Source: Bdellovibrio sp. ZAP7
GTDB taxonomy: Bacteria > Bdellovibrionota > FAC87 > UBA2466
Direction of reading: 5' to 3'
Assembly: GCA_945878405.1 (NCBI GenBank)
Contig: CAMCTJ010000004.1
Coordinates: 62,001-126,000 of the forward strand
Length of the DNA: 64,000 bases
Made by a program: the position numbers and the translations under genes. The notes below the pieces were generated by a model. That model searched no databases, was not told where the DNA came from, and worked only from the letters and a program-made list of their open reading frames with translations. Each line of letters opens with the position of its first letter. Within the stretch, counting starts at the first letter, position 1. Shown here one piece after another: positions 32,852 through 38,350 of this stretch.

Positions 32852-33044
32852 TCAATGGTCAAATCTCTAAAGGGTGCACTTCTAGCAAAAACGGAGAACT
32901 AACTCAAGGGGTGATCGTTTTTTATCATTATTTTCAGTCAGTTATACCGCAGTTAAAAAGCTTTTGTTTAGGGTGTTCTGATTGACACTAATGGTGGCTC
33001 GGAGCTACTGTTTTGAAGTTTTTACACAGACCACAAGGACCAGA

Positions 33045-34340
33045 ATGAAGCTTCCACCCATCGAGTGGATCGAAAAAATGATCCGCATCAGCTCGACTAC
33101 TCATCAGAGTAATGAGGAATTGGTCCGTTTTCTCGTGCCCCTTCTAACTGAGACTGGTTTAAAAGTAGAAGAACAGCTAGTGATCGAAAATGGGGTCCGT
33201 TTTAAAAACCTCATCGCCTATAGCCACACCCTAGACGCTCCGGATCTTTTGGCTCTTAACACCCATTTGGATACCGTTGACCCTGGAGAGCCTACTCAAT
33301 GGACAAAAACTGAAGGAAACCCATTTCAAGCAACTCGACTGAGAGATCGAATTTATGGCCTGGGAACAGCAGATGTAAAATTAGATTTCTTGTGTAAAAT
33401 TTGGGCCGCCCGCCTCGCTAAGCCTTGGAAGCGCCCTTTTGCCCTCATAGGCACTTACGGCGAAGAGCGAGGATTAATTGGAATCCAGGAACTATTCAAA
33501 CTTAAAAAATTTAAACCCAAATATGCCTTGGTCGGGGAACCCTCCAATCTTGAATTGATTTATGCCCACAAAGGTCACTTAATTTTTACAGTAGCTGTTC
33601 CGCTCCTTCTTGATCGCCAACAATCTCAGGTAACAAAAAAGAGATGGAAGGGAGTTTCTGCGCATAGCTCAACTCCTGATTTAGGCGATAATGCACTTGT
33701 AAAAGGATTAACGGATATTTTCAAAAGGGGCTACGGAATTACCCATCTTGCTTCGGGTACTAACTTCAACAAAATACCGGACAGTTGTGAGGCTTCAGTA
33801 GTTGCAGATCAAAATGAAACAACCCGAATGATATTTAAACTGATTCAGTTTCTAGATGATTTACGACATGATTTTAAATCACGAAAAGACCCGCGTTTTT
33901 CTCCTTCGACTTCTTGTTTAAGTCTGAATCAGGCGATCACCCGTTCGGAACATATTGAGTTTGTATTTGATGTTCGGACTTTGCCCGATGTAAATCACGA
34001 GCGATTAGAAAAGAAAGTTCGTGAGGGGATTGCAAAGTTTGGTGCCAAGGTGACCCACGTTACTTCTGACGCTTCTTTACGGGGACAGAAGAACAGTCGT
34101 TTTTTAGTACAGGCATCTCGAACGCTTAAGGCCTGCGGAGTTAAACCAGTGCTCAAAACCAAGGCTACTTCAACAGAAGCGGCCATTTATCAAGCTCACG
34201 GGGCAAGTGCCATTGTATTTGGTCCAGGAATTAGCGTAGGAAATGCTCACCGACCGAATGAATATAATTCTTTTAAGCAGATGGAGATCGCAACTCGTTT
34301 TTATACACAATTTCTAAAGACTCCGTGGGTGGAAGTATGA
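33045..34340 (+). CDS. M20-family metallopeptidase / N-acyl-amino-acid hydrolase
   Basis: A 431-residue member of the ArgE/DapE/ACY1 group. Active-site residues are present: His74 and Asp76 (THLDTVD), bridging Asp110 (GTADVKLD), catalytic Glu140 with Glu141 (YGEERG), GEPS, and a late His in 'GNAHRPNEY'. So it should be an active dizinc deacylase. The start at 33045 follows AAGGA; the frame is open to 32982. It is coupled to an arginine succinyltransferase-like gene and an AstD-like gene, suggesting an acylated amino acid substrate rather than diaminopimelate, but this is inference. Confidence 0.85.
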   Translation: MKLPPIEWIEKMIRISSTTHQSNEELVRFLVPLLTETGLKVEEQLVIENGVRFKNLIAYSHTLDAPDLLALNTHLDTVDPGEPTQWTKTEGNPFQATRLRDRIYGLGTADVKLDFLCKIWAARLAKPWKRPFALIGTYGEERGLIGIQELFKLKKFKPKYALVGEPSNLELIYAHKGHLIFTVAVPLLLDRQQSQVTKKRWKGVSAHSSTPDLGDNALVKGLTDIFKRGYGITHLASGTNFNKIPDSCEASVVADQNETTRMIFKLIQFLDDLRHDFKSRKDPRFSPSTSCLSLNQAITRSEHIEFVFDVRTLPDVNHERLEKKVREGIAKFGAKVTHVTSDASLRGQKNSRFLVQASRTLKACGVKPVLKTKATSTEAAIYQAHGASAIVFGPGISVGNAHRPNEYNSFKQMEIATRFYTQFLKTPWVEV

Positions 34341-35371
34341 TCGATGCCGATTTTCTCATTAGAAGTGTTAGAGAATCTGACCTAGAAGATCTGGAGCGTC
34401 TGAGCGAGCTCGTATACTTTATCAACTTACCCAGCAACCGAGATCTCCTGAAAGAAAAAATTCGAAAGTCCGTTGATTCGTTTAATGGTCAGATTCAAGA
34501 TAAATTTGAACGGGAATATATTTTCGTTTTGGTTGACCAAAAATCTTCAAGAGTAATTGGCACCTCAATGATCATTGCTCGACATGGTAGCCCTGATATT
34601 CCCCATATGTATTTTGAGCTTAAAGAGAAACAGAAATACAGTGAAACCATCCATGCTGGATTTATTCACAAAGTGCTCAGCCTCAAGTTTGATTCGGATG
34701 GTCCCACTGAAATTGGTGGATTGGTGATTGACCCGAGCTATCGCGGTCATAAACTTAAGCTGGGAAGAATTCTCTCTTTCTGTCGCTTTTCCTTTATGAA
34801 AATGAAGCGTCGATGGTTCAAAGATCGTGTGCTGTCGGAGCTCATGCCCCCCTTGTCAGAAAGTGGAGAAAGCTTGCTTTGGGAGGCTCTCGGGAGAAGA
34901 TTCACAAACCTTTCGTATCAAGATGCCGATCTCCTCTCACGGAAAAACAAGGAATTTATCACGTCTCTATTTCCCAAAGGAGATATTTACACTGTACTTT
35001 TGTCTGGTGAGGCCAGGGACGCCATTGGCAAGGTAGGCCCCGATACGGAACCCGTAAAACATATGCTGGAAAAAATCGGTTTCAAATGGCGTGAGCATAT
35101 CGACCCCTTTGATGGAGGTCCACACTACTGGGCCGATACCGATAAAATCACTTTAGTTAACCACACAAAGAAATATCACGCCCATCGAGACGCCCTCAAA
35201 AGCAGAACCGGTGAACGGGCGCTGGTCAGCATTTTTAAAGACGGTGAGTTCCGTTGCATGCAATCTCCCTTTGAACTTACAAGAGGCAAGGTACAATTAC
35301 CAAAAGCAGTTTTGGAATTAATGGAATTAACGGGGAGCGAAGAGGTTTTCCTTCTTCCTTTGGAATCATGA
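34337..35371 (+). CDS. astA: Arginine N-succinyltransferase-family protein
   Basis: A 344-residue protein of the AstA/AruF GNAT-like family, which succinylates arginine (or ornithine) with succinyl-CoA in the AST catabolic pathway. Family blocks seen include 'IRSVRESDLEDLERLSE', 'LPSNRDLL', 'TEIGGLVIDPSYRGHKLKLG', 'LSELMPP', 'DIYTVLL' and 'HIDPFDGGPHY'. Some positions differ from the strongest consensus (ELMPP for EMRG), so the acceptor could differ. The start overlaps the M20 stop (ATGA) and the stop overlaps the AstD-like gene. Confidence 0.82.
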   Translation: MIDADFLIRSVRESDLEDLERLSELVYFINLPSNRDLLKEKIRKSVDSFNGQIQDKFEREYIFVLVDQKSSRVIGTSMIIARHGSPDIPHMYFELKEKQKYSETIHAGFIHKVLSLKFDSDGPTEIGGLVIDPSYRGHKLKLGRILSFCRFSFMKMKRRWFKDRVLSELMPPLSESGESLLWEALGRRFTNLSYQDADLLSRKNKEFITSLFPKGDIYTVLLSGEARDAIGKVGPDTEPVKHMLEKIGFKWREHIDPFDGGPHYWADTDKITLVNHTKKYHAHRDALKSRTGERALVSIFKDGEFRCMQSPFELTRGKVQLPKAVLELMELTGSEEVFLLPLES

Positions 35372-36888
35372 CCACTCAACGTATTTACCTAGGAAATTAT
35401 TGGGGGGGCCATTTCGTTAAGGTCACCGATCCGAATGGGGTCATCCTCAGTCGAAATCCAGGAAATCTCGAAGAAAAGGCAGTTGAATTCCCCTTTGCCA
35501 ACAGTCATGTAGATGAAGCGATTCAGGCAGCAAAAAGAAGCCTGCCCATTTGGCGAAGGCTAACGGCTGCCGAAAGATTTTCTCACTTGAATCGCTATAG
35601 AGAAATTTTATCCCAACGAGCTGAGAGTCTGGCTTTGTTGGATAGTTTTGAAATTGGAAAGCCCCTTTGGGAATCCCGCTTGGAAATTGCTGATAGCCTA
35701 CGAGTGATTGATCACTTTTTACAACTGGGGAGTCAAACCACGTTAGAGACCAAGATTCCAGAAGCAAAACCGGGACTTGACGGAATGGTGAGGCACCATC
35801 CTATTGGGGTCATTGCAGTGGTCTCCCAGTCTGTGATGCCAATGGTCTCTATCCATCATCACTTTATTCCAGCTTTATTGAATGGAAACACGGTGGTTGT
35901 TAAAACAACAAAGTTTGCACCTGCTTTGGGTCAAGCTATTGCAGAGTGCGCACACGCAGCAGGACTGCCTGCCGGATCATTTAATTTTTTGCAGGGAGAT
36001 GGGGATATCGCCCGGCGACTCACAGGTCACCCTGAAGTAGATGGGGTCTTTTTCACTGGAACTCCGGAGACAACTATCGCCATAAAAAAGCAACTCTTGA
36101 ATGATTATTGGAAAATTCAAGTCATTCAAAGTGGTGGCAAGAACGCCTCGGTTGTTTGGGACGATTGCAATTATGATCTGACCTTAAAGAGTCTCCTCTT
36201 GTCGGCTTTTTCGGCATCAGGACAACGCTACACAAGCACCAGCCGAATCATTGTTCATAAAAAGCTTTACGAAAAACTACTCAAAGACTTTCACTCCCTT
36301 TGTAAGAAAATCCCCATTGGTTATGGACTGACCTCTACCTCCCCTGTCCCGTTGATGGGGCCCTTAGTAAGTGAACGCTTAGTAGAGGATTACGTTCGTT
36401 ATCAAGGCATTGCAGTGAGAGAGGGATGTGAGGAGATCATGCGCGGAAAGCCGCTCGAAAGAAATCCGAAGGGTTACTATGTTTCCCCATCGATTTACGC
36501 GATTTCCAAAGCTGATCCCAAGAGTGTTTATCAAAACTCAGAATTCTTTGGTCCTCAAGTTGCATTTTATCCGGTGTCGGATCTTGATGAAGCAATCGAG
36601 ATCACAAACCAAACCCAGTTTGGTTTGGTTGCTTCGTTATTTTCTTCCAATGTAAAACACTTTGAGCATTTTGCTCACGAGGCCAAAGTGGGGATCTGTC
36701 ATTGGAATCTCCCTTCGACTCAAGTCAGCTATAAATTGCCTTTTGTCGGTTTGCGAAAAAGTGGAAATATGCGTCCGATGGGCTCTTTCGCTGGCTACCA
36801 ATGCACATACCCAGTCAGTAGCCTCATTCTTCCTCCGGATTCGGTTGACACTTTTAAATTTCCTCAAGCTCTTACAGATTGGTTATGA
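35368..36888 (+). CDS. AstD-like aldehyde dehydrogenase, catalytic residues replaced
   Basis: A 506-residue aldehyde-dehydrogenase-fold protein closest by eye to succinylglutamate-semialdehyde dehydrogenase (AstD); it starts 'IYLGNYWGGHFV'. The NAD-binding 'FFTGTPET' is present. The catalytic cysteine motif GQRC reads GQRY (Tyr288, codon TAC at 36229), and the general-base motif LEMGGKN reads IQSGGKN (Gln254, codon CAA at 36127). The 34-residue spacing between the two equals that in active ALDHs, so the alignment is secure. It is probably not an active dehydrogenase. It overlaps astA upstream and ruvX downstream (ATGA), and the frame is intact throughout. Confidence 0.85.
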   Translation: MTTQRIYLGNYWGGHFVKVTDPNGVILSRNPGNLEEKAVEFPFANSHVDEAIQAAKRSLPIWRRLTAAERFSHLNRYREILSQRAESLALLDSFEIGKPLWESRLEIADSLRVIDHFLQLGSQTTLETKIPEAKPGLDGMVRHHPIGVIAVVSQSVMPMVSIHHHFIPALLNGNTVVVKTTKFAPALGQAIAECAHAAGLPAGSFNFLQGDGDIARRLTGHPEVDGVFFTGTPETTIAIKKQLLNDYWKIQVIQSGGKNASVVWDDCNYDLTLKSLLLSAFSASGQRYTSTSRIIVHKKLYEKLLKDFHSLCKKIPIGYGLTSTSPVPLMGPLVSERLVEDYVRYQGIAVREGCEEIMRGKPLERNPKGYYVSPSIYAISKADPKSVYQNSEFFGPQVAFYPVSDLDEAIEITNQTQFGLVASLFSSNVKHFEHFAHEAKVGICHWNLPSTQVSYKLPFVGLRKSGNMRPMGSFAGYQCTYPVSSLILPPDSVDTFKFPQALTDWL

Positions 36889-37349
36889 ACGAAACACCCA
36901 CTCGAATTATGGCACTTGATATTGGCTCGAAACGCACCGGCGTTGCACTCTCAGATGAGACGCGGCTTTTTGCAAGCCCACTCGTGACCGTGGAAGAAAC
37001 ACAAATCAAACCCTGGTTAGTAAAAATACAAAAGCTTGTTGAAGAACATGAGGTAGCGGAAGTACTCGTGGGATTGCCCTTGAATCAGTTCGGTGAAGAG
37101 GGCAAAGATGCTCTGAACATCAGAAGATATATTGCAGCGTTGCAAGGGGGCCTTAAGATCCCTGTGGTAGAATGGGACGAACGTTTTACAACGGTTCAGG
37201 CGGAGCGCACACTGTTAGAAGCCGATCTCTCTAGAAAAAACAGAAAAAAAGTGATCGATCAGGTAGCCGCTTGTATTATTCTTCAAGGTTACTTAGACAG
37301 TTTAAAGTTCAATCAAAATCTGGAAACATCCTCGTGGGACAACGACTAA
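36885..37349 (+). CDS. ruvX: RuvX/YqgF Holliday-junction-resolvase-like / pre-16S nuclease
   Basis: A 154-residue RNase H-fold protein with the N-terminal 'MALDIGSKRTGVALSD' (catalytic Asp), 'EVLVGLPLN' and 'VVEWDERFTT' motifs, and Asp in 'KVIDQVAACIIL'. Family members process the 5' end of 16S rRNA. The ATG at 36885 overlaps the previous stop. The next gene, mltG, begins within its last 16 bases, the common yqgF-mltG pairing. Confidence 0.92.
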   Translation: MNETPTRIMALDIGSKRTGVALSDETRLFASPLVTVEETQIKPWLVKIQKLVEEHEVAEVLVGLPLNQFGEEGKDALNIRRYIAALQGGLKIPVVEWDERFTTVQAERTLLEADLSRKNRKKVIDQVAACIILQGYLDSLKFNQNLETSSWDND

Positions 37350-38350
37350 ATACACATGGCTCTTTGAAATCAGCTCTAGCAGGACTTACTGCAATTGGCG
37401 GCTTGGCTTGTTTAGGGATGCTCCTTTTTCTTCTAAAAGGTAGCCCAAGTTCAGCAACGAAAGACATCCTCATCCCGAGAGGATTATCGTTAAAAGCAGT
37501 TTCTGAACTCTTAGCCAAAGAAGGGGTTGTCCAGCATCCCATTATTTTTCAAAATCTGCTGCGTTTCACTCGAGGCAGTAAAAAAGTGAGAGCAGGTGAA
37601 TTTCGCTTTCGGCCAGGAGCCAATTTATTAAATACGCTCAAAGTGCTTTATCAGTCGGACCCAATTACCCATTCCATTACCGTGCCGGAAGGTTGGAATG
37701 TGAGACAGATAGCGGCTTTGATTCAAGAAAAAGAACTCGGCCGTTCGGATCGATTTATTCAGTTAGCTCTTTCCCCCCAGTCAGCAAAGAAATATCAGCT
37801 CTCAACTCCCCACCTCGAGGGGTTTCTCTATCCCGACACTTATCTTTTTTCCCGAGTGGATGGCGAAGAAAAAATGTTGGAAACAATGGTGAATCGTTTT
37901 TTTCAAGAGTACAACGCACGATTCAAAAGCAGAATCCCGGCGTCCGGCATGACTTTAGAAAAGGTTATCACTTTGGCCTCTATTGTTGAAAAGGAAACTG
38001 GAAAAGCAGGCGAACGGCCACTGATTGCCTCCGTTTTCTTTAATCGCTTGAAAAAAGGAATGCGGCTACAGAGTGATCCCACTACTATTTATGGGATTGC
38101 TAATTTTAACGGCAATATCACCAAAGCAGATCTCCAACGGTGGACTCCCTATAACACCTATACGATTTCTGGCCTACCGCCTGGCCCCATTGCAAGTCCG
38201 GGGGGAGATGCCATTGAGGCGGTTCTAAAACCAGAATCCAGCGACTATCTGTACTTTGTAAGCGACAATAATGGCTCTCACTTTTTCACAAAAACGTATC
38301 AAGATCATTTACGGTTGGTTCGCAATTATCAAATACGCCGTCAAAACTAG
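37334..38350 (+). CDS. mltG: Endolytic murein transglycosylase MltG
   Basis: MltG cuts nascent peptidoglycan strands and acts as a terminase. The 338-residue protein has an N-terminal membrane anchor (AIGGLACLGMLLFLL), LysM-like 'GLSLKAVSELLAKEGVV', the catalytic Glu around 219-221 (IVEKETG), 'RLQSDPTTIYG' and 'NTYTISGLPPGPIASPG'. The start is taken as GTG at 37334, within the end of ruvX; the frame continues further upstream to 37271 inside ruvX without membrane or family features. Confidence 0.92.
   Translation: MGQRLNTHGSLKSALAGLTAIGGLACLGMLLFLLKGSPSSATKDILIPRGLSLKAVSELLAKEGVVQHPIIFQNLLRFTRGSKKVRAGEFRFRPGANLLNTLKVLYQSDPITHSITVPEGWNVRQIAALIQEKELGRSDRFIQLALSPQSAKKYQLSTPHLEGFLYPDTYLFSRVDGEEKMLETMVNRFFQEYNARFKSRIPASGMTLEKVITLASIVEKETGKAGERPLIASVFFNRLKKGMRLQSDPTTIYGIANFNGNITKADLQRWTPYNTYTISGLPPGPIASPGGDAIEAVLKPESSDYLYFVSDNNGSHFFTKTYQDHLRLVRNYQIRRQN

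Follow-up and report, generated by a model that had tools for sequence, protein, structure and literature searches.

Retained AstD-like aldehyde dehydrogenases that appear to have lost their active sites in several lineages of Bdellovibrionota

What keeps a full-length aldehyde dehydrogenase (ALDH) gene intact when its product has apparently lost the residues of catalysis? The question is raised by an open reading frame at positions 35368–36888 (forward strand) of the window, by which we mean the whole 64,000-nucleotide stretch of DNA analysed, from Bdellovibrio sp. ZAP7. The frame starts with ATG and runs for 506 codons with no internal stop, and its product scored 324 bits against the Pfam model Aldedh (PF00171, gathering score 23), placing it in the ALDH superfamily. 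Its best NCBIfam matches were the AstD models, with no ALDH16 model among the matches listed, and the scores of 281 bits for TIGR03240 (cut-off 579, thus about half) and 298 bits for NF006992 (cut-off 514) lay below the AstD thresholds, as did those of the canonical Bdellovibrio orthologue (434 and 453 bits). An AlphaFold2 model, confident throughout with a pLDDT of 92.4, adopted the ALDH fold, and a Foldseek comparison gave TM scores of 0.89–0.92 to solved AstDs, of which 3ju8 and 4kna are the closest homologues, with about 30% identity and a gene that likewise lies beside AstA.

The first-pass annotation had described an AstD-like ALDH with Tyr288 (in GQRY) at the position of the nucleophilic Cys and Gln254 (in IQSGGKN) at that of the general-base Glu, and this description held: codon 254 (36127–36129) is CAA and codon 288 (36229–36231) is TAC, opposite the Glu and Cys carried by the solved AstDs 4kna and 5u0l and by all canonical orthologues, with the normal spacing of 34 residues, which is also that between Glu268 and Cys302 of ALDH2. 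The losses extend further, as residues 154–158 (35827–35841) read QSVMP instead of P-F-N-F-P, with Val156 in place of the oxyanion Asn, and residues 179–182 (35902–35913) read KTTK instead of K-P-S-E, with Lys182 in place of the Glu that contacts the NAD ribose. The alignment is ungapped at the catalytic positions and agrees with the solved AstDs, which argues against a chance or misaligned assignment, and a sequencing error at 36127 or 36229, the artefact considered at the outset, is excluded by the same residues in independently assembled sister species. Nor does a second AstD stand in elsewhere in the genome, the other four ALDHs being only 24–28% identical and not AstD-like orthologues. 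With Tyr288, Gln254 and Val156 where a catalytic ALDH has Cys, Glu and Asn, the residues indicate that the window protein is a catalytically dead AstD-like ALDH, and no NAD-dependent oxidation of N-succinylglutamate semialdehyde would be predicted for it.

The window comes from a small class within Bdellovibrionota that is represented by metagenome assemblies, and we analysed 15 of its species; 14 gave readable orthologues, the fifteenth being a fragment at a contig end. IQSGGKN and GQRY are common to two sister species of the window's genus (64–71% identity, assembled independently), but the Tyr/Gln pair is fixed within this genus only and is not a feature of all relatives: position 288 elsewhere in the class is Ser, Arg, Tyr or Cys, and the 254/288 pairs across the genera are Q/Y, N/Y, V/S, D/R, E/R and E/C. 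GQRY recurs in a genome of another family (G014), there with Asn at the Glu site, and six members of one genus (g6) together with G006 retain both Cys and Glu. The oxyanion Asn is gone in every member with a readable site (the truncated copy of G005 has IQP for NFP), the Glu of KPSE is lost and the aldehyde anchor loop is altered throughout the class, and FTGS has become YHGP in g6. The initial view of two single, conserved substitutions is thus accurate within the genus, whereas across the class the aligned residues point to erosion of the whole NAD/aldehyde pocket, different in each genus. Canonical AstD orthologues have 124 columns with conservation of 97% or more, and most of the class has lost 35 of these; the corresponding losses in the other proteins of the cluster are 2 of 51 for AstA, 1 of 16 for M20 and 0 of 41 for MltG. 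By contrast, 83 loci from other parts of the phylum (some representing one organism in two collections) are canonical, and the Bdellovibrio bacteriovorus type (locus L100) has NFP, KPSE/D, Glu and Cys intact and a class-III aminotransferase gene as neighbour.

These AstD orthologues of the phylum usually lie in a cluster of class-III aminotransferase, M20, AstA, AstD and MltG, the M20-AstA-AstD part of which is kept in order in both the class and the phylum. In the window, ATGA stop-start overlaps chain an ArgE/DapE-type M20 deacylase (32982–34340, exact start uncertain), an AstA-type N-succinyltransferase (34337–35371, probable start ATG 34337), AstD and RuvX/YqgF (36885–37349, start ATG 36885), followed by the endolytic transglycosylase MltG (37271–38350), all on the forward strand. 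MltG, the most frequent downstream neighbour of this AstD family, adjoins AstD in the class and in family f3 and not in family f8. The M20 protein retains its metal ligands and AstA 49 of 51 phylum-conserved columns, bearing out the earlier impression of an active-looking deacylase and an AstA-type transferase. AstB was not found in the window genome and its class-III aminotransferases are distant paralogues only, leaving the genome without the AstB and AstC-type aminotransferase that mark the AST pathway. In those class genomes that were tested no ArgC match exceeded the cut-off, which makes a role of M20 and AstA in arginine biosynthesis look unlikely. We also considered whether AstA itself is dead, as the His of QVHP in the Pseudomonas alpha chain 1yle corresponds to the Gly of KVGP in the window; almost all of the phylum has Gly, Ser or Ala in this column, even where the cluster is intact, so that it does not set the class apart, and this branch of AstA may accordingly use a different catalytic arrangement.

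The surroundings of AstD vary. A GT9 (heptosyltransferase-like) gene lies between AstD and RuvX/MltG in several genera of the class (L037, L038, L039, L041, L042, L043, L045 and L046) and is absent from the window's genus. Most of g6 has at least one reversed gene of about 225 codons splitting AstA from AstD (L038:5871-6551, L041:5982-6656, L042:6802-7491), and the one tested, that of L038, had no NCBIfam match. In f8, six loci (L228, L225, L226, L227, L229 and L222) have lost AstA from the cluster with M20 and AstD still adjacent, and L228 additionally keeps the aminotransferase, so the surviving subset of the cluster differs by lineage.

To place these losses against neutral decay we compared substitution rates. 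Because synonymous sites within the genus are saturated (pS 0.78–0.86), ordinary dN/dS is not computable there, and dN was compared with that of neighbouring genes. AstD (0.22–0.30) evolves much like Era (0.19–0.21), Der (0.20–0.24) and MltG (0.25–0.27) and 2–3 times faster than AstA (0.10–0.12), although between two canonical Bdellovibrio loci AstD is the slower of the two. AstD is by these comparisons relaxed relative to AstA and far from neutral. Its nonsynonymous divergence reaches about one-fourth of the saturated synonymous value, a close pair of g6 gives an omega of 0.08 at a dS of 0.20, and wherever a class member has the complete gene its frame of about 500 codons is intact. The relaxed selection that would have spoken against retention applies to the pocket and not to the rest of the protein. 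With its catalytic motif gone, its fold retained and purifying selection acting on it, AstD is a pseudoenzyme kept by selection rather than a decaying gene, as the first-pass annotation had proposed, here from an intact frame in three species, a housekeeping-like dN and a pLDDT of 92.

Related losses of the AstD active site occur in at least three other families. Family f3 has Gly and Ser at the Glu and Cys sites and keeps PFN, KPSE and EIFGP; in f16 (G052) Trp takes the place of Glu and the Asn is missing; and in f8, G041 has Tyr and Ala at the two catalytic sites while Gln or Asn replaces Glu in G060, G188, G115, G094 and G145. In the tree the window's class forms one clade (support 99) and f3 a separate supported clade, and the fewest changes required are four at the Cys site and seven at the Glu site, with the placement of G052, G145 and G041 unsure on very long branches. 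The lineages seem to stand at different stages: the oxyanion and NAD sites probably went first in the class and the base first in parts of f8, and f3 has lost its nucleophile and base with the oxyanion Asn retained. Separately, L182 and L184 of family f9 carry another AstD-like copy, one with intact catalytic residues, other neighbouring genes and no MRGK element (described below).

The disarmed proteins co-occur with loss of the cluster aminotransferase. In a profile search that separated its orthologues (at least 414 bits) from paralogues (at most 182 bits), no orthologue was found in the 15 class genomes, f3, f16 and seven f8 genomes. Of the 29 genomes without the aminotransferase 25 have an eroded AstD, as against 1 of the 33 in which it is present (Fisher P = 4e-12, a value that ignores kinship), and three of three phylogenetically independent pairs are concordant, too few for significance (P = 0.25). 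Four genomes that lack the aminotransferase have an intact N/E/C triad (G033, G035, G139 and G050), which may represent early stages or gaps in metagenome assemblies, and G041 is the opposite exception, having the aminotransferase and a dead AstD.

As the pocket eroded, constraint shifted to another part of the protein. Residues 341–376 (36388–36495, forward strand) form a family-specific element, RYQGIAVREGCEEIMRGK...GYYVSPSI, with the pattern ...RxxGIAxREG..E..MRGK..., which is undiminished in all disarmed copies, is shared with the canonical Bdellovibrionota orthologues and is absent from the aligned stretch of proteobacterial AstDs. Identity within the class is 0.85 at residues 341–360, compared with 0.75 outside it, and falls in much of the pocket from about 0.8 to 0.5–0.6. 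When eroded proteins of several families are taken together as a panel, identity drops from 0.72 to 0.40 at residues 145–190 (NAD/oxyanion) and from 0.76 to 0.42 in the anchor loop, and that of residues 341–376 holds (0.60 versus 0.58); these segments were picked after viewing the alignments, making the comparison a descriptive one. K313, R351, R359 and K361 are present in 17 of 17 eroded proteins. We regard 341–376 as a candidate binding site, most likely for an anionic ligand or for a partner protein, though its conservation could instead be structural, reflecting folding or a tetramer contact.

Taking these observations together, we favour, with a probability of about 0.6, the reading that AstD was formerly a bifunctional enzyme that lost catalysis with its substrate and was kept for a second, non-catalytic function. 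As AstB is absent, a plausible ancestral route, modelled on the known chemistry of AST, a pathway of arginine breakdown, would begin with AstA succinylating ornithine, with the product then transaminated by the adjacent class-III enzyme to succinylglutamate semialdehyde, oxidised by AstD and desuccinylated by M20, so that the original aldehyde would probably have been N-succinylglutamate semialdehyde derived from succinylornithine. Once the aminotransferase was lost, the aldehyde would no longer have been made and the NAD/aldehyde pocket would have drifted, in the class probably through the oxyanion Asn and the NAD Glu and then variously through Cys and Glu by genus, while the fold and residues 341–376, together with K313, would have stayed under selection as carriers of the second role. 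Residual or changed chemistry is possible in g6 and G006, where Cys and Glu are kept.

Other explanations were weighed against this reading. The chained overlaps and the conserved M20-AstA-AstD order suggest that the dead AstD might complex with AstA and/or M20, stabilising or regulating them as an operon scaffold or allosteric subunit, which the high conservation of both partners in the class while AstD catalysis goes would fit. Disarmed AstD persists, however, in f3, which has no AstA, M20 or aminotransferase, and in AstA-less f8 genomes, and reversed genes part AstA from AstD in most of g6. Because AstD outlasts AstA, or AstA and M20 together, a scaffold for these partners is not general, making the scaffold role raised by the first-pass annotation doubtful as a general role and, as the explanation here, unlikely. 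The pocket might otherwise be rebuilt rather than dead, for example for NAD-independent hydrolysis, isomerisation or the binding of a non-aldehyde, and the new residues fixed in the class (Y77, F94, H163, Y425, H445 and Q478), along with the Cys and Glu of g6 and G006, are consistent with an altered enzyme. The residues at 254 and 288 nevertheless vary among genera of one class such that no single new chemistry fits, and identity falls sharply across the pocket, so we judge this quite improbable.

A sensor that binds NAD(H) or an aldehyde with no turnover, the other role suggested at first, finds some basis in the cofactor contacts Lys179 and Glu392–Phe394 still present in the window protein, and in f3, which lost Cys and Glu but kept PFN, KPSE and EIFGP. 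Against it, KPSE has given way to other residues in the window's class, no oxyanion Asn is left there and g6 has YHGP for FTGS; with these NAD-contact residues lost, a sensor matches f3 better than the window's class and seems very unlikely here. Slow decay, in which a useless gene stays intact by chance or through translational coupling to the downstream RuvX/MltG, could draw on the overlap of the AstD stop codon with RuvX and on the rate of AstD relative to AstA in the genus. The intact frames throughout the class, the low nonsynonymous divergence and omega, and the invariance of R351, R359 and K361 in every eroded protein all oppose it, and we give it very little credence.

ALDH domains without catalysis have precedents. 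Luo and colleagues in 2016 reportedly described a bacterial, non-catalytic ALDH superfamily domain of unknown function in PutA with a structural role; that domain is fused within PutA, whereas the window AstD is a free-standing, full-length former enzyme. Human ALDH16A1, a pseudo-ALDH, has the fold and lacks the catalytic residues, and it is proposed to work by binding proteins (PMC10650815, PMC8160307). Pseudo-ALDHs as such are thus already known, and it has likewise been proposed in print that pseudoenzymes can reveal moonlighting by their active homologues (PMC10211241). ALDH16A1, however, is an animal protein of another ALDH family, and the loss seen here is recent and recurs, in graded form, within a single orthologous group; in the searchable literature we found neither an AstD-family pseudoenzyme nor such recurrence described.

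Pseudoenzymes are usually ancient single cases, but here several changes at different stages fall within one orthologous group, accompanied by a likely cause, the loss of the enzyme that supplies the substrate. An enzyme outliving its chemistry through a second function thereby becomes testable, and candidate residues are indicated. More tentatively, and at less than even odds, all Bdellovibrionota AstD-like proteins, active ones too, may have a second function in residues 341–376, independent of catalysis and of AstA/M20. If so, the repeated losses of the aminotransferase would amount to separate natural experiments that leave the second function alone, and the disarmed proteins would expose a hidden function of an active enzyme in predators such as Bdellovibrio, predicting that this second function exists in culturable Bdellovibrio.
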